A stretch of DNA of 48,424 nucleotides, from the NCBI GenBank assembly GCA_030426845.1, contig JAUHXR010000026.1, positions 1 through 48,424 on the forward strand, in the 5' to 3' direction. Source of the stretch: Polyangia bacterium (GTDB lineage: Bacteria; Myxococcota_A; Polyangia; Polyangiales; Sandaracinaceae). Within the stretch, counting starts at the first letter, position 1. Every line of letters begins with the position of its first letter. A program made the translations under genes and the position numbers. This document shows, piece after piece, positions 3,453 through 13,120 of this stretch. Below the pieces are notes generated by a model. It did not search any database. It saw only the letters and a list, made by a program, of their open reading frames with translations, and was not told the DNA's origin.

Positions 3453-5369
<1,917 letters not shown>

Positions 5370-6281: not shown

Positions 6282-6671
6282 GTGATCCACCGCGCGCTGA
6301 GCCCCTTCCTGACGCTTTGCGTCCTCGGCCTCGCCGCCTGCGACGGCGGCGGCGACTGCACCGAGGCGCAGGTCCGTATCCTCGACCCGATGCCCATGCA
6401 GCGGATCACGGCGGCCGACGACGCCGACCCGTCCGACGCCACGATCCAGTACTCGTTCGTGCTCGAGGGGACCTGCCTCGCCGAGGACGAGCTGGTGGAG
6501 CTGTACCTGCTGTCGCCCGCGGAGTCGCTCTACGGTGGCGGGGCGGTGGACGCGATGGGGATTTACCGCAGCCCGCCCCTGCCGTTGATCCCCGGGGAGA
6601 GCCGATTCGTGGCGCGCTCGAGCGTCTCGGGAGCCGAGAGCGAGGAGCTGGTGATCTCGGTCGCCTTCTGA
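6282..6671 (+). CDS. Predicted lipoprotein, function unknown
   Basis: 129 aa from a GTG start. A hydrophobic signal ends in lipobox LGLAAC (Cys20), then a Gly/Asp linker and a compact beta-rich domain of about 100 residues. The GTG is favoured because the nearby ATG at 6274 is out of frame and stops after three codons, and because TATCAT lies 6 nt before the GTG. The PhnD-like gene follows 8 bp downstream, so the two are likely co-transcribed. I do not recognise the domain. Confidence 0.7.
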   Translation: MIHRALSPFLTLCVLGLAACDGGGDCTEAQVRILDPMPMQRITAADDADPSDATIQYSFVLEGTCLAEDELVELYLLSPAESLYGGGAVDAMGIYRSPPLPLIPGESRFVARSSVSGAESEELVISVAF

Positions 6672-6679
6672 CGAGGACC

Positions 6680-7495
6680 ATGGAACGCCCCCTCCAGTTC
6701 GGCCTGGTGCCGGTCCACGAGGACCCCGAGACCCACGCGGCGATCGACGTCGTGGTCCAGACCCTCGGCGAGACCCTCGGCCGCGACTGCGCCCCGGCGC
6801 GCTGCGCCTCGCCGCGCGAGCTGGCGGAGCGCTTCGAGGCCGGCGAGATCGACGTGGCCTGGTCCAGCCCGACGCTCGCGCTGACGGAGCTCCCGTCGGG
6901 GACGCCGCTCGCCGCGTCGGTCCGGCAGGGCGTGGCCTACTACCACGGCGTCCTGTTCGTGCGGCGCGACGCACCTCTCGCCGGGCCGACCGCGATGGCC
7001 GGTCGCTCGGTCGGCTGGGTGGCTCCGACCTCTGCGTCCGGGTACCTCTTCGCGCGGGTGGCGCTCGCGTCGCTCGGGGTCGACGTGCGCGGCTTCTTCG
7101 GCGAGGAGCGGTTCCTCGGCTCGCACGGCGCGGTGGTCGACGCGGTGGTCGCGGGCGAGACGGAGGTCGGCGCGACCTTCGCGGTCTTCGCGGACGGCGA
7201 CGCGTCGGGCGCGATGCTGACCTCGGGCTTCACCCAGGCCGGTCAGTCGGACGCGGTGCGGATCCTGTTCTGTACGCCGCCGATCCCGTCCGACCTGATC
7301 GTCGCGCGGCGTGAGGTCGACCTCGCGATGGGGCCCTCGCTGCGCGACGCCGTGCTCGCGCTCCCCACCCGCGCGCCCGAGGCGGTGACCCGGGTGACCG
7401 GCGCGGAGTGCTTCGAGGCGTGCCGGCCGCGCTTCCTCGACCCGCTCAAGGTGCAGCTCGCCGACGCGCGGACGCTCGGGCTGATCGACGGCTGA
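6680..7495 (+). CDS. PhnD-like substrate-binding protein without signal peptide
   Basis: 271 aa. The fold signature matches the PhnD family of phosphate/phosphonate-type binding proteins: IDVAWSSPTLALTELP, YYHGVLFVRRDA, SVGWVAPTSASGYLFARVAL and a later VGATFAVF. Such proteins normally bear an export signal and feed an ABC transporter. Here the protein starts MERPLQFGLVPV with no signal peptide, and no transporter genes are adjacent. It may be a cytoplasmic ligand-binding protein, or may be anchored through a partner such as the lipoprotein encoded 8 bp upstream. GAGG lies just before the ATG. The convergent membrane-protein gene begins 2 bp beyond the stop. Confidence 0.75.
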   Translation: MERPLQFGLVPVHEDPETHAAIDVVVQTLGETLGRDCAPARCASPRELAERFEAGEIDVAWSSPTLALTELPSGTPLAASVRQGVAYYHGVLFVRRDAPLAGPTAMAGRSVGWVAPTSASGYLFARVALASLGVDVRGFFGEERFLGSHGAVVDAVVAGETEVGATFAVFADGDASGAMLTSGFTQAGQSDAVRILFCTPPIPSDLIVARREVDLAMGPSLRDAVLALPTRAPEAVTRVTGAECFEACRPRFLDPLKVQLADARTLGLIDG

Positions 7496-7497
7496 GC

Positions 7498-8310
7498 TCA
7501 GGCCCGCAGCCACGCGAGCGCGCCGAGCACGCAGGCGATCGCGACCACCCCGACCGTAGCCTTCGCGCGGTCCTCGGGCGGGACCCGGCGCGCGCGCGGG
7601 TGCGCGAGGACCACCGCCGCGCCGAGGAAGGGCAGGGCGGGGACGCCGCGGCCGGTCGCGAGCACGACCGCGAGGGTGACCGCGAGGCTCACCGCGAGCG
7701 CGGCGGCGGTCCGCGGCAGGGACAGGCCGTGGCGGCGTGAGGCCACGCAGTAGAGCGCGGCGAAGGCGACGTCTCCGACGCCGAGGAGCGGCTCGATCCG
7801 GTCGGTGCCGAGGAGCGGGAAGGGCAGGAGCAGGACGTTCACCGCGGCCTCGATCTCGACGAGCTGCGCGGTCGGGCCCGCAGGATGTAGAACGCTGAAC
7901 GCGTCGACGAGGGCGGAGACGATCGCGACCACCAGGAGGTAGCCGGGCCTCTCGATCAGGCCGCCGACCACCGCGCCGACCAGGGTGCCGAGGCCGAGCA
8001 GGCCGGCGGTGACGAGCGCGGCGGCCGCGATCGGCGCGAGCGCGTCGCCGAGGACCGCGACGAGCGCGAGGAGCCCGACCGGGACGGGGAGGGCGGCGAG
8101 CCAGCGCGGCCCGAGCGCGGGGGTGAGCGCGCTGACGCCCACCACCTGCGCGCCGACCGCGCCGAACGCGAGGAGCGCGCCGACGATCCGCGCGGCCTCG
8201 GGCACCGGCACATGGGGCGCGATCAGCGCGGACAGCACGAGCGTCGCCGCGGCGGTCGCGATCGCCGCGAGCCAGCGACCGATCGCCACCCGAAGCGGCG
8301 GGGTCGGCAC
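7498..8310 (-). CDS. Presenilin/SPP-like intramembrane aspartyl protease candidate
   Basis: 270 aa, about eight or nine membrane spans. Three motifs occur in the order and rough spacing of presenilin/signal peptide peptidase proteases: a first intramembrane Asp in VDAFSVL (D136, compare the YD motif of archaeal homologues), GVGD at 177-180 (the GxGD motif, D180) and PALPFL from 224 (the PAL motif). In the family the two Asp residues are catalytic and PAL shapes the active site. The Tyr before the first Asp is Val here. A prepilin peptidase is less likely, because its first Asp and cytoplasmic Cys motifs are absent. The gene starts with GTG and lies 80 bp downstream of the Crp/Fnr gene on the same strand. 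Function is inferred from motifs only. Confidence 0.65.
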   Translation of the reverse strand: MPTPPLRVAIGRWLAAIATAAATLVLSALIAPHVPVPEAARIVGALLAFGAVGAQVVGVSALTPALGPRWLAALPVPVGLLALVAVLGDALAPIAAAALVTAGLLGLGTLVGAVVGGLIERPGYLLVVAIVSALVDAFSVLHPAGPTAQLVEIEAAVNVLLLPFPLLGTDRIEPLLGVGDVAFAALYCVASRRHGLSLPRTAAALAVSLAVTLAVVLATGRGVPALPFLGAAVVLAHPRARRVPPEDRAKATVGVVAIACVLGALAWLRA

Positions 8311-8390: not shown

Positions 8391-9113
8391 TCAGCTCCCG
8401 CCCCCGCCCTTCTTGCGGCCGAACGCGATCGCCTCGAGGCGCTGGACGTCCACCACCTCGATGAGGTCGGGCGTCACCTTGAGCGCGCCCTCGCGCTCGA
8501 GCAGGGCGAGGCCGCGCGAGATCTCCTCGCGCACCGTGCCGAGGCGGCCGGCGACCGTCTCGGTGGTCAGGTCGCGGACGAGGTTGCGCGCGTCCTCGCC
8601 CCGCGACTCGCGGGCCGCGACCAGCGTGCAGAGGAACGACGCGAGCCGCGACGGGACGGTTCGGAGCGACAAGTCGCTGACGAGCTTGAGCGTCTTGGCC
8701 TCGCGCTTGGCGAGCAGGTTGAGGAGCGAGCGGTAGATCTGGGGGCGCCGCTCGCCGAGCGTCGCGAGCAGCTCATTGCTCATCAAGACTGCGCTCGCGG
8801 CGCGCATCGCGATCGCGGTCGCGGGGTAGTTGCCGCCGTCGAACCGGATGCCCTCGACGATGGGTCGGCCGGGGCGGGCGAGGTAGATGATCTGCTCGCG
8901 TCCGTCGCGCCCGCTCTTGGTCAGCTTGACCTCGCCGGTGCGGACCACGAAGAAGCCCTCGGCGGTCTGTCCTTCGCTGAACAGCGGGGCGCCCTTGGCG
9001 GCCTTTCGGATCTCGGAGCCCTCGGCCAGCGCGTGGAGATCTTGCGCCGGAAGGTCTCTGATCACGGGCACATCACGTAGCAGCTCGTCGGCCGTTCGCG
9101 GGGCGATCGCCAT
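8391..9113 (-). CDS. Crp/Fnr family transcriptional regulator
   Basis: 240 aa from the ATG at 9113. A cyclic-nucleotide-binding-type beta-barrel occupies about residues 15-115 (GAPLFSEGQTAEGFFVVRTG), a long dimerisation helix follows, and a winged helix with recognition segment TTETVAGRLGTVREEISR is at about 183-202. The Cys cluster that binds iron-sulfur in FNR is absent, and the Arg-Ser pair that binds cAMP in CRP is not obvious, so the ligand is unknown. An upstream in-frame ATG at 9125 is possible, but TATGCT lies 7 nt before 9113, supporting the shorter form. It is divergent from the FHA/AAA+ regulator. Confidence 0.88.
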   Translation of the reverse strand: MAIAPRTADELLRDVPVIRDLPAQDLHALAEGSEIRKAAKGAPLFSEGQTAEGFFVVRTGEVKLTKSGRDGREQIIYLARPGRPIVEGIRFDGGNYPATAIAMRAASAVLMSNELLATLGERRPQIYRSLLNLLAKREAKTLKLVSDLSLRTVPSRLASFLCTLVAARESRGEDARNLVRDLTTETVAGRLGTVREEISRGLALLEREGALKVTPDLIEVVDVQRLEAIAFGRKKGGGGS

Positions 9114-9120
9114 CGGCGCG

Positions 9121-9126
9121 AGCATA
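9121..9126 (-). promoter_or_regulatory. -10-like hexamer for Crp/Fnr gene (leaderless type)
   Basis: TATGCT on the minus strand, 7 nt upstream of the ATG at 9113. Confidence 0.4.
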
Positions 9127-9190
9127 CCATGCAGGCAACGCACACGTGACGTTTCTCCTCCCCGTGGGCTCATGCATACTCGGCCCCGTC

Positions 9191-9208
9191 ATGGGCTCCG
9201 TGAAATGA
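9191..9208 (+). other. Possible five-codon leader ORF overlapping the next start
   Basis: ATG at 9191 opens a frame encoding Met-Gly-Ser-Val-Lys and stops at 9206-9208. The stop overlaps the ATG of the FHA regulator at 9205 (ATGA). CATACT at 9175-9180 lies 10 nt upstream. Translation of this mini-ORF could couple to the regulator. No experimental support is visible. Confidence 0.25.
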
Positions 9209-10836
9209 GCGTGTCCGGCGCAGAGCGCAGTCAGGCCTTCGTGGCGGTGCGGTTCGAGGACCGCTCGTGGGTGGTCGATCTCCCGCGCGGAGAAGCCGAG
9301 CTCATCGGGCCCGAGCCCTCCGCGGTGGTGCGCGTCGACGGGCTCGCGCGCGCGCAGGGTCGCCTGCGCTGGGACGGCGAGATGGTGACGCTCGAGCGCA
9401 CCGCCAAGACGCCGCCTATCTTCGTCAACGGCAAGCGTATGCCGGCCCGCGTGATCCTGCGGCCGGGCGACGAGCTGAGCGTGGGCGATGCGCGGATGGT
9501 GTTCGGGCTCGCGAGCCAGCCGCACGCGAGCGGCCGGCGCGCGCTGACCCATCAGGAGTTCCGCGAGCGGCTCGCCGAGGAGCTCGCCCGCGCGGCGCGT
9601 CGCGGCCGGCCGACCACGCTCGTGATGGTGCAGGCGAAGCCGGGCGAGGGCGGCAAGGTGCTCGAGGCGGGGCTCTCGAGCTTCCGCGCGGGCGACGTGG
9701 TGGCGACCTACGCGCACGACGAGCTCGAGCTGCTGCTCCCCGACACCTCGTTCGATCAGGCCTCCGCGGTGGTGACGCGGGTGCTCGAGGGGACGGGGCT
9801 CGCCGGCCTCCGCGCGGGGGTGGCGGTCGCGCCGCACCACGCGGACACGCCCGAGCGGCTGATCCACCGCGCGCGCCTCGCGCTCCGCGCCGCGGCCGAG
9901 CAGCGGGGCGCGCGGGTTACGGGGCCGCCCGAGTCGGTGGTCGCGGGGGCGCCGCTCACCGCGCGCGACCCCGCGTCGCTCGCGGTGGTCGCGCGGCTCG
10001 AGGAGCTCGCGGACGGCGACGCGACGGTGCTGCTGACGGGCGAGGCGAGCAGCGGCAAGGGCGTCTTCGCGCGGATCCTCCACGACCGGAGCGCCCGCGC
10101 CGACGGCCCGTATGTCGTCATCCGCTGCGCGACGCTCGTCGATCAGGATCGCATCACGGCCGCGCTCGGGCCGCGCGGCGGGCTCCCGGACGGCGCGAGC
10201 TGCGAGGCGCTCGCGGCGCGCGGTGGGACGCTGCTCCTCGACGAGGTGTGCGAGCTGCTCCCCGACCCGCAAGAGCGCTTGCTCGACGCGATCGACGCCC
10301 TCGACGGCGACGTGCGCCTCGTCGCTACCACCCACCTCGACCTCCGCGCGCTCGCCGAGCGCGGCGCGCTGTCGGAGGCGCTCGTGGAGCTGGTCGACGG
10401 CGTAGAGGTGAAGGTCCCCGCGCTGCGCGAGCGGCCCGAGGACATCGTCCCGCTCGCCGAGGTGTTCGCGGCCGCGAGCGCGCAGGGCGCCCCGCCCAAG
10501 CTGACCCCCGGTGCGCTCGCGCGGCTCCGCTCCCACGCGTGGCCGGGCAACGTGCTCGAGCTGCGCAACGCGATGGAGCGCGCGGTCCGGCTGGCGAACG
10601 GCGGCGAGCTCCTCGCCGAGCACCTCCCGAGCGACAGCCTGCCGTCGGGCGGCGGCGAGGGGCGCCTGCGCGAGCACGTCGACTCGATCGAGCGCGACGC
10701 GATCGTGAAGGCGCTCGCCGACAGCAACCACAACCAGACGCACGCGGCGCGGCGCCTCGGCATCAGCCGGCGCGCGCTGATCTACAAGATGGAGAAGTAC
10801 GGCCTCAAGCCGCCGCCCGGCAGCTCGCGCAAGTAG
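9205..10836 (+). CDS. FHA/GGDEF-like/AAA+ regulator lacking the GAFTGA loop
   Basis: 543 aa. Residues about 10-105 form a degenerate FHA-like domain (FVNGKRMPA, LRPGDELSVGDARMVFG). Residues about 112-235 resemble a GGDEF domain in which the active-site stretch reads YAHDELELLLP, so it should be inactive. Residues 250-470 resemble a sigma-54 activator AAA+ domain: altered Walker A GEASSGKG (279-286), Walker B GGTLLLDE (340-347) and HAWPGNVLELRN. The GAFTGA loop that contacts sigma-54 is missing, with a shortened segment in its place. A Fis-type helix-turn-helix ends the protein (508-532). It probably binds DNA but may not remodel sigma-54. The start at 9205 overlaps a possible leader ORF; an in-frame ATG at 9172 is the alternative. 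Confidence 0.85.
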   Translation: MSVSGAERSQAFVAVRFEDRSWVVDLPRGEAELIGPEPSAVVRVDGLARAQGRLRWDGEMVTLERTAKTPPIFVNGKRMPARVILRPGDELSVGDARMVFGLASQPHASGRRALTHQEFRERLAEELARAARRGRPTTLVMVQAKPGEGGKVLEAGLSSFRAGDVVATYAHDELELLLPDTSFDQASAVVTRVLEGTGLAGLRAGVAVAPHHADTPERLIHRARLALRAAAEQRGARVTGPPESVVAGAPLTARDPASLAVVARLEELADGDATVLLTGEASSGKGVFARILHDRSARADGPYVVIRCATLVDQDRITAALGPRGGLPDGASCEALAARGGTLLLDEVCELLPDPQERLLDAIDALDGDVRLVATTHLDLRALAERGALSEALVELVDGVEVKVPALRERPEDIVPLAEVFAAASAQGAPPKLTPGALARLRSHAWPGNVLELRNAMERAVRLANGGELLAEHLPSDSLPSGGGEGRLREHVDSIERDAIVKALADSNHNQTHAARRLGISRRALIYKMEKYGLKPPPGSSRK

Positions 10837-10877: not shown

Positions 10878-11504
10878 CTACTTGACGAGGCGGAGGTGCG
10901 GGGCGCGGGTCCTCGGCGCGTCGTCCCCGTCGGGAGCGCTCGGGGCCGGCTCCTCGGGCTCGTCCGCATCGGCGCCCCGGTCGGCCGCCTCGCCGTCCTC
11001 GGACGCGACTCCGTCCTCGGACGCGACTCCGCCCGCGGTGGCCGCGCCGGCGCCCTTCGAGGGCTTCTCCTTCGCTTCGGCCGGCGTATCGTCGGTCTCA
11101 GCGTCGGTCTCGTCCGCCCGGCCTCCGTCGATCGAGCGGAGCGTCGGGCCGCTCCTGGTCGCGCGGCGGGCGGCGGCCGCGACCTCGGCCGCGATCTCCT
11201 CGGGCAGGTGCTCGTTCCACACGTAGCCCATCCCGTCGTCCCCCACGAGCCCGAACACCGCGTCCCACGGCACCGCGCAGGCGAACGGCGAACGGTTGAA
11301 CGAGAGCGTGCCGAACACCCCCTCGCCGTCGACGCGGAGGTCGGGGATCGGGATGGGCAGATCGAGGCCCACTTGGAGCACGAGCTGCGGCTGCTTGGCG
11401 AGCCACGGCGGCACGCGGACCGCCTCGTGCCGCGGATCGAGGTACACGAAGAGGCTGCCGCGGAGGAGCAGCGTGCGTGCGACGTCTTGCTTGGGCGGGC
11501 TCAC
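10878..11504 (-). CDS. sspB: SspB-like ClpXP adaptor
   Basis: 208 aa. Residues about 8-100 match the SspB substrate-binding fold (LFVYLDPRH, VGLDLPIPIPDLRV, VPWDAVFGLVGDDGMGYVW). An acidic, low-complexity Ala/Asp/Glu/Gly linker of about 90 residues follows, and the protein ends APHLRLVK, which closely matches the ClpX-binding C-terminal tail of SspB (LRVVK in E. coli). SspB tethers ssrA-tagged and other substrates to ClpXP. The folded domain, flexible linker and ClpX tail are all present, so I expect a working adaptor. It starts with GTG and has a weak AGG upstream. The last codons and the stop lie in a 12-bp direct repeat (about 10866-10889). Confidence 0.88.
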   Translation of the reverse strand: MSPPKQDVARTLLLRGSLFVYLDPRHEAVRVPPWLAKQPQLVLQVGLDLPIPIPDLRVDGEGVFGTLSFNRSPFACAVPWDAVFGLVGDDGMGYVWNEHLPEEIAAEVAAAARRATRSGPTLRSIDGGRADETDAETDDTPAEAKEKPSKGAGAATAGGVASEDGVASEDGEAADRGADADEPEEPAPSAPDGDDAPRTRAPHLRLVK

Positions 11505-11566: not shown

Positions 11567-13120
11567 TCACGTGCACATGCCGCTCGAGCAGGTGCCCGAG
11601 CAGCAGTCGTTGTTGCTGAGGCACGCGCGCCCCGAAGGCCGGCACATGCACGTGCCGCTCACGCAGTCCATGTAACCGCAGCAGTCGCCGCCCGCCGAGC
11701 AGCTCCCGCCGGCCTCGCGGCAGCAGCGCACGCCGAAGGTCACGCCGGCCCGGCACGACAGATCCATGCCCGAGCAGCAGTCGGCGTTGACCGAGCACAT
11801 CCCCATCACGTTGGAGCACGTGCAGGCGGCCGACGAGGTGTTCCAGTCCGCCGAGCAGCTCCCGGTGCTCGGGCCGATCGCGTTGCCCGTCATGCAGGTC
11901 GAGTTGCCGCCGCACCAGCCGCAGCCCGGGCGGCCGGTGCAGGTCGCGCAGCCGGTCGAGGTGTTGCACGGGTCGGACGTGGTGCAGCTCGAGCGGACCC
12001 AGTCCCAGTTCGAGCAGGTGCCGGTGCCCGGCCCGGCCGAGGTGCCGTAGCGGCAGGTCCCGGTCGACTCGCACCAGCCGCAGTTGGACACGCCGGTGCA
12101 GGCGTCGCAGTCGGCCTGGCCGGTGCACGTGGTGGAGCACTCCCCGACGGAGTTGTCCCACTCGCCGCTGCAGGTGCCGCTGGTCGGCCCGGCGAAGTTG
12201 CCGGGCATGCAGGTGTTGGTGCCGGTGCACCAGCCGCAGCCAGAGAGCGACGCGCAGCTCGCGCAGTCGGTCGCGCTCGAGCAGCCACCGACGGTGCACT
12301 CGCCCGTCCGCCACGCCCAGTCGCCGCAGCTCCCGGTGCTCGGGCCGCTCGAGGTGCCCTCCATGCACCCGCCGCCCGAGTTGCACCAGCCGCAGCCGAA
12401 CTCCGCCGTGCACTGGCCGCAGTCGGAGAAGCCGCACCGCGTGGTCACCGGCTCGCAGGTGCCCGCGTTGCAGGTCAGGCCGCTCCCGCACATGTCGCCC
12501 GCGCAGCACGGCTGGCCGTCGCCGCCGCAGGTCGGGTCGGGCGTCCGGCACGTGCCGTCCTGGCAGGTGTTGCCGCCCGAGCACTCGCTGGGCGGGTCGC
12601 AGCAGGTCTGCCCGAGCGCGCCGCACGCGCCGCACATCCCGCCGGTGCAGGTGAGGCCGCTGCGGCACATGTCACCCGCGCAGCACGGATCGCCGTCGCG
12701 GCCGCACTCGGTGTTGTCCTGCAGGCAGATGCCGTCGGCGCAGAGGAGGTCGGCGCAGCAGTCGGAGGCGCTCCGGCACGAGCCGTTCTGGGGCGCGCAG
12801 CAGGCGTTGCCCACGCAGTCGTTGCCGCCGCAGCAGTCGTCGGGCCCCGCGCAGGCCTCTCCGCCGGGGACGGCGCAGCACGCGTCGTCCTCGCAGCTCA
12901 GGCCGCGATCGCAGCGCGGGCCGGCGGTGCAGCACGAATCGCCCAGGGCGCCGCAGCCCCCTCCGGGGCCGGCGTCCGGGCGGCCGCCGCCCGCGTCGCG
13001 CTCGGGGTCGCCGGCGTCGAAGCCCGTCCGCGGCCCCGCGTCCTCGTCCATGCCGCCGTTCGCGCAGGCCGTCGCGCCGAGCGCGAGCGCCGTCACCCAA
13101 GCCAGAAGAGTCCTCTGCAT
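11567..13120 (-). CDS. Large Cys-rich lipoprotein with four PSI-like repeats
   Basis: 517 aa. A signal ends at lipobox GATAC (Cys19), then an Asp/Gly/Pro-rich linker (20-55). Residues 56-225 hold repeated CCAGDMC / CGSGLTC-type Cys knots. Four repeats at about 229-275, 280-328, 332-379 and 385-433 each contain GCGWC or NCGWC, then C, GP, TG.C and a Trp before a final Cys, which resembles the PSI (plexin-semaphorin-integrin) fold. More Cys knots end the protein. It should be surface-exposed and held by many disulfides. Its binding partner is unknown. TAGGGT lies 6 nt before the ATG. It is divergent from the REC-GGDEF gene. Confidence 0.85.
   Translation of the reverse strand: MQRTLLAWVTALALGATACANGGMDEDAGPRTGFDAGDPERDAGGGRPDAGPGGGCGALGDSCCTAGPRCDRGLSCEDDACCAVPGGEACAGPDDCCGGNDCVGNACCAPQNGSCRSASDCCADLLCADGICLQDNTECGRDGDPCCAGDMCRSGLTCTGGMCGACGALGQTCCDPPSECSGGNTCQDGTCRTPDPTCGGDGQPCCAGDMCGSGLTCNAGTCEPVTTRCGFSDCGQCTAEFGCGWCNSGGGCMEGTSSGPSTGSCGDWAWRTGECTVGGCSSATDCASCASLSGCGWCTGTNTCMPGNFAGPTSGTCSGEWDNSVGECSTTCTGQADCDACTGVSNCGWCESTGTCRYGTSAGPGTGTCSNWDWVRSSCTTSDPCNTSTGCATCTGRPGCGWCGGNSTCMTGNAIGPSTGSCSADWNTSSAACTCSNVMGMCSVNADCCSGMDLSCRAGVTFGVRCCREAGGSCSAGGDCCGYMDCVSGTCMCRPSGRACLSNNDCCSGTCSSGMCT

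Follow-up and report, generated by a model that had tools for sequence, protein, structure and literature searches.

Presenilin and signal peptide peptidase (SPP)-type enzymes, among them the Alzheimer's disease protease, cleave their protein substrates within the membrane and have been described in eukaryotes and archaea. The archaeal presenilin/SPP homologues (PSH) are proven proteases (PMC2947513), and presenilin homologues are also present in the Asgard archaea (PMC7997004). The GxGD proteases described from bacteria are the prepilin peptidases, which constitute a different family, and it is with these prokaryotic enzymes, as the other GxGD enzymes, that the PSH study contrasts PSH (PMC2947513). 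A report of a bacterial presenilin/SPP (A22) enzyme, including from the myxobacteria, was not found in the literature searched, though the phylogeny of Raut et al. 2021 was not covered and the absence of an earlier description remains unproven.

The gene described here is located in a window of 48,424 nucleotides (the whole stretch of DNA that was analyzed) and spans 7498..8310 on the minus strand, where an open reading frame (8310..7498 with stop) begins with a GTG start at 8310, has its coding part in 8310..7501 and its stop codon at 7498–7500, and encodes 270 amino acids. An earlier note, made from sequence alone, had placed a presenilin/SPP-type protease candidate of a myxobacterium at 7498–8310, with the motifs VDAFSVL (D136), GVGD (177–180), and PALPFL (from 224) and a Crp/Fnr gene upstream on the same strand. 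The coordinates held, the strand of the gene being minus (the plus-strand frame at 7498–8310 is not open), as did the motifs with exact residue numbering, the position of the Crp/Fnr gene (open reading frame list and Pfam), and the assignment to the myxobacteria, the genomes of the same family being Sandaracinaceae (Polyangiales, Myxococcota). The presenilin/SPP-type reading is supported by residue conservation, the PDB profile search, Pfam tendencies, and two AlphaFold models, while the shortened N-terminal half, the extra C-terminal helix, and loop charges favoring the SPP over the presenilin orientation had been missed. The protein is likely a bacterial member of the GxGD di-aspartyl intramembrane proteases, compact in build and homologous to presenilin, to SPP, and to archaeal PSH (MEROPS A22-like). 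Homology to these enzymes is shown by both sequence and fold, catalysis is inferred, and proteolysis, orientation, and substrates are untested.

The putative first catalytic Asp, D136 (7903–7905), lies in a model helix spanning residues 124–141 (7888..7941, minus strand), the second, D180 (7771–7773), closes the GxGD motif GVGD at residues 177–180 (7771..7782, minus strand), and the PAL motif PALP occupies residues 224–227 (7630..7641, minus strand). In an alignment of 41 Myxococcota homologues, D136 is present in all 40 members covering that position and S139 in 41/41, G177 and D180 are found in 41/41 and G179 in 36/41, and P224 and L226 are likewise universal (41/41) with A225 in 39/41. The motif residues coincide with the invariant alignment columns of the family, and conservation of both D136 and D180 among homologues, proposed beforehand as a check, held. 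Because the 41 homologues share 23–62% identity with the window protein, falling as low as 23%, the conservation of the motifs is selective. From the first Asp helix, a longer motif, D-x2-SV-x2-P-x-GP, extends to residue 146.

The arrangement of the motifs is equally constrained, with 44 residues from D180 to P224 in 41/41 members and 44–49 residues from D136 to D180 (44 in the window protein). The ordered pattern D-x(35-60)-Gx[GA]D-x(35-60)-PALP was detected in 35 of 2359 open reading frames from the examined loci, all 35 of them homologues, and a looser form of the pattern occurred in 144 of 200,000 shuffles of the window protein; the order of the Asp, GxGD, and PAL motifs is not a product of chance. 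Three features were taken as criteria for A22, and the model shows all of them: a first catalytic Asp within a transmembrane helix (D136 within helix 124–141), a GxGD whose Asp lies on the transmembrane helix that follows (GVGD at 177–180), and a PAL at the start of the helix two after GxGD (PALP at 224–227, ahead of helix 226–236). The Tyr that precedes the first Asp in the YD motif is absent, with A, V, F, or S in its place throughout the family. This relaxation of the classical YD signature weakens membership in classical A22A/A22B, but not homology. It should be noted that five members (L018, L021, L025, L071, and L077) carry GxAD or GxTD in place of GxGD, and that the corresponding replacement of Gly by Ala makes both PSH and presenilin slower (PMC2947513).

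The informative sequence search was that using the family profile and not single sequences. On its own, the window protein retrieved no A22 relative in Pfam, NCBIfam, PDB, or PHROGs, no Pfam or NCBIfam model recognizes it, and the curated A22 models (PF01080, PF04258, and PF06550) gave no match above cut-off. When 24 members were scanned singly, PF01080 was touched weakly by seven (best E 0.0027) and PF04258 by five (best 0.014), and these were the Pfam models most often matched. Searched against 177,635 PDB sequences with E-values up to 10, the family profile returned nine sequences, exclusively presenilin-2 (7.4e-5), presenilin-1 (1.1e-4 and weaker), and SPPL2a (0.0047), which meets the requirement of a significant sequence relationship to known A22 members. 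In the resulting alignments, D136 is paired with PSEN D257 ('YDLVAVLCPKGP' in PSEN versus 'aDlvSVlspsGP' in the family profile), and the stretch LGvGD...PALP of the family is aligned to PSEN1 380–441, with GVGD opposite the PSEN1 LGLGD and the second Asp corresponding to PSEN D385.

Alternatively, the protein could be a type IV prepilin peptidase (A24) that has diverged, A24 being the GxGD membrane protease family already known from bacteria. Such a reading would be consistent with its paired Asps and GxGD-type motif, its small size and multiple membrane spans, and the common occurrence of A24 enzymes in bacteria. Against it, Pfam scans produced no match to an A24 model, the PDB profile search gave no A24 structure, and the genome possesses three separate A24 prepilin peptidase loci (in addition to separate SppA-type genes). 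Further, the Asps of A24 enzymes are on the soluble side and several helices apart (PMC2947513), whereas here adjacent transmembrane helices carry them and PAL comes after. The structure search did not list FlaK/A24 structures, but this does not prove that they were absent. Combined, this leaves next to no room for the A24 alternative and the A22-like assignment is retained.

Of 57 genomes (the source genome and its relatives), 30 have a homologue, one per genome. In a phylum-wide sample of 379 genomes, a profile of 24 homologues detected members in 27, with two families beyond the order among these; these genome searches covered the Myxococcota, and other bacterial phyla were outside their scope. 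In a contig collection, the single protein as query had no match, and contigs matching a 7-sequence alignment originated from Sandaracinaceae and other Myxococcales/deltaproteobacterial MAGs. PF01080 and PF06550 produced only sub-threshold matches, with nothing above cut-off, in 189 Myxococcota genomes, and thus miss the family. Open frames of up to 1350 amino acids around some homologues were considered as fusions and rejected, as they were taken to be spurious GC-rich frames; in two loci with such long frames a von Willebrand-type protein is read on the opposite strand.

The predicted structure places the protein in the same group of enzymes. For an AlphaFold model of the window protein built from 11 sequences (pLDDT 88.5, pTM 0.85), VIA-align listed 23 chains with Z 8.1–13.9, all of which were SPPL2a, presenilin-1/-2, or PSH, and the next chain, heme A synthase, was at Z 5.0. 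SPPL2a was the best match (Z 13.9, rmsd 3.4, 190 residues), followed by presenilin-1 (Z 12.7) and PSH (Z 11.0). A Foldseek search, a further check put forward in the earlier note, returned top hits that were all A22 (presenilin and SPPL2a) with a probability near 1 and weak E-values (best ~0.01). Modelling of a homologue that is 37% identical (pLDDT 74) gave a second structure, which matched A22 chains at Z 9.9–14.6, with the next at 5.5. The fold predicted by both models is that of A22. The part aligned to A22 structures starts at residue 36–47 (mostly 40–47), corresponding to PSEN1 73–79 and PSH residue 7, and ends at about 246. Proximity of D136 and D180 is inferred from superposition on the A22 structures and from the alignment to PSEN D257/D385, with no direct distance available.

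The model contains nine long helices, with the Asps on the fifth and sixth, PAL on the eighth, and one helix after PAL, and so the nine-helix layout of A22 (Asps on TM6/TM7 and PAL on the last helix, TM9) is not met. The TM1 equivalent is separated from the first Asp helix by only two helices (68–87 and 93–118), compared with four in presenilin. Because the aligned range covers about 45–246, two helices fall outside the known fold: an extra N-terminal helix (model helix 6–33; 8212..8295, minus strand), which precedes the part aligned to presenilin TM1, and an extra C-terminal transmembrane helix (model helix 245–269; 7504..7578, minus strand), which follows the PAL helix. A hydrophobic C-terminal tail is present in 40/41 members. 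The homologue of genome G017 (L013/L038) ends directly after the PAL helix (...PAARGA) without a C-terminal helix, through either natural loss or a sequencing frameshift. A modelled strand pair (161–165/172–177) precedes GVGD. Presenilin forms strands with its substrate (reviewed in PMC12067869), and the predicted pair may sit near the substrate-binding strands of presenilin, which is suggestive only.

Presenilin and SPP/SPPL have reversed topologies and cut type I and type II substrates, respectively (PMC7768045). In presenilin the loop between the two Asps is cytosolic. With loops assigned from the model, K+R per 100 residues was 18.0, 13.1, 19.2, and 27.1 for loops 2, 4, 6, and 8 and 4.7, 7.7, 3.3, and 7.0 for loops 1, 3, 5, and 7, and application of the positive-inside rule to these charges assigns the Asp–Asp loop to the periplasm. 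The charge bias fits the SPP orientation in 37 of the 41 members, with three ties and one contrary. An SPP-like orientation, inverted relative to presenilin, is supported by charge statistics only, without direct topology data. Given this orientation, the enzyme would most likely act on type II (N-in) helices, signal peptides among them, an inference that is itself untested.

In the mechanism proposed here, D136 and D180, carried by two helices, would meet within the bilayer and activate a water molecule for cleavage of the substrate helix. The substrate, once unwound, would be held by the PAL motif, which opens the next helix but one, possibly with help from the strand pair. Both the Asp–Asp loop and the PAL entry would face the periplasm, an SPP-like placement that is the reverse of that in presenilin, and the substrates would be type II helices, for example leftover signal peptides, signal anchors, and N-in regulators. 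A caveat is that SppA and prepilin peptidases are already encoded in the genome, so that no signal-peptide task is obviously vacant. It could also be argued that the protein has the A22 fold and acts mainly as a non-proteolytic membrane protein, such as a cation leak or scaffold, as archaeal presenilin-like enzymes have been reported as dual protease and channel (Kuo et al. 2015, cited in PMC7997004). The catalytic residues, however, are the most conserved positions and their loss would be expected had proteolysis been lost, which makes this alternative very improbable and leaves proteolysis as the preferred function.

Directly upstream of the protease gene is a codirectional Crp/Fnr-type regulator (8391..9173, minus strand, read 9173..8391; Pfam cNMP_binding and HTH_Crp_2), which ends 80 bp before the protease start. 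The arrangement is found in all nine homologue-bearing genomes of the window's family and in one genome of another family, always on the same strand and with gaps of −127 to 84 bp between the end of the Crp/Fnr gene and the protease start. Judging from gene arrangement, the protease gene is probably co-transcribed with the Crp/Fnr gene as an operon partner in the Sandaracinaceae. Further upstream are a sigma-54 activator (8929..10833, plus strand) and an SspB-like gene (11504..10881, minus strand); across several families these two, the activator usually divergent, adjoin the protease gene even without Crp/Fnr, and the sigma-54 activator cluster is linked to it in 15 loci. The neighbors in other families differ and include fatty-acid enzymes, or MoxR-type, SMC-like, and other genes, and for this reason the enzyme probably works alone.

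Elsewhere in the window, a phosphonate-binding-type solute protein (6671–7492, plus strand) is convergent with the protease gene, its open reading frame ending at 7495, just before the stop at 7498. A Cys-rich, secreted-looking protein (11570–13120, minus strand) has repeated Cys motifs and a match to a Plexin/PSI repeat, and a radical SAM protein (3453–5369) is of the YgiQ type, with Radical_SAM_N at the N-terminus and DUF3362.

The regulator genes next to the protease gene bear on a further alternative, that the protein is the same type of protease in a presenilin-like orientation and cuts type I (N-out) stubs in regulated signaling, for example feeding the Crp/Fnr or the sigma-54 regulator. 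The D136 stretch does resemble presenilin (D-x2-xV-x2-P-x-GP), PF01080 is matched by more members than any other Pfam model, and the linkage to Crp/Fnr (9/9 family genomes) and to the sigma-54 activator cluster (15 loci) would suit such a role. However, the loop charges point the opposite way in 37/41 members, the Crp/Fnr protein carries no domain besides cNMP-binding and HTH and is no obvious substrate, and the regulator linkage is absent in other families. This alternative is considered unlikely, and the SPP-like orientation remains the favored reading.

What is new is a presenilin/SPP homologue, inferred to work alike, that lacks both the YD signature and a nine-helix layout with PAL on the last helix, and that existing models miss. 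A bolder reading, for which the case is no stronger than the case against, is that the Myxococcota hold an unrecognized, structurally reduced presenilin/SPP branch, a di-aspartyl intramembrane protease of bacteria whose orientation is that of SPP and whose first-Asp motif resembles that of presenilin, and which may stand near the ancestral core of both enzymes. If the function is as proposed, the family would represent a new class of intramembrane proteolysis in bacteria beside S2P, rhomboid, and Rce1-like enzymes. A bacterial family that keeps the catalytic signatures with a reduced set of N-terminal helices would reveal which helices are required for the active site and would bear on whether the presenilin/SPP superfamily is of archaeal origin, and compact bacterial enzymes could serve mechanistic and inhibitor studies of gamma-secretase and SPP.

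Among the known systems, the type IV prepilin peptidases and FlaK (A24) are, like the window protein, GxGD-type di-aspartyl membrane proteases of bacteria and archaea, but there is no sequence match and their Asps occur in soluble regions several helices apart (PMC2947513). A24 prepilin peptidases and FlaK are also not known to have a PAL motif. Archaeal PSH/MCMJR1 (PF06550; PDB 4hyg and 4y6k) is, alike, a prokaryotic single-subunit enzyme with D, GxGD, and PAL in the same order and a shared core fold (4y6k, Z 11.0, 161 residues, rmsd 4.0). Unlike PSH, the bacterial family is not recognized by PF06550, and the window protein has a shorter Asp–Asp spacing (44 versus 58, D162 to D220), ~89 rather than ~155 residues ahead of the first Asp, counted from the first helix of the alignment (two helices fewer), and extra N- and C-terminal helices. 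Presenilin-1/-2 (PF01080, A22A), the catalytic subunit of gamma-secretase, is the best sequence-profile match (E 7e-5), including the P-x-GP after the first Asp, and is similar in fold (Z 12.7), but its long autocleavage loop (128 residues between the Asps versus 44) is missing in the window protein, for which the predicted orientation is inverted. SPP/SPPL2a (PF04258, A22B; PDB 9k93) differs in that the window protein is without the SPPL N-terminal domain and a Pfam match above cut-off, has a helix after the PAL helix, and has a first Asp motif that is not YD. Nevertheless, SPPL2a is the top structural match of the window model (Z 13.9, with presenilin within ~1 Z), and the orientation that loop charges suggest for the bacterial protein is that of SPP/SPPL2a.
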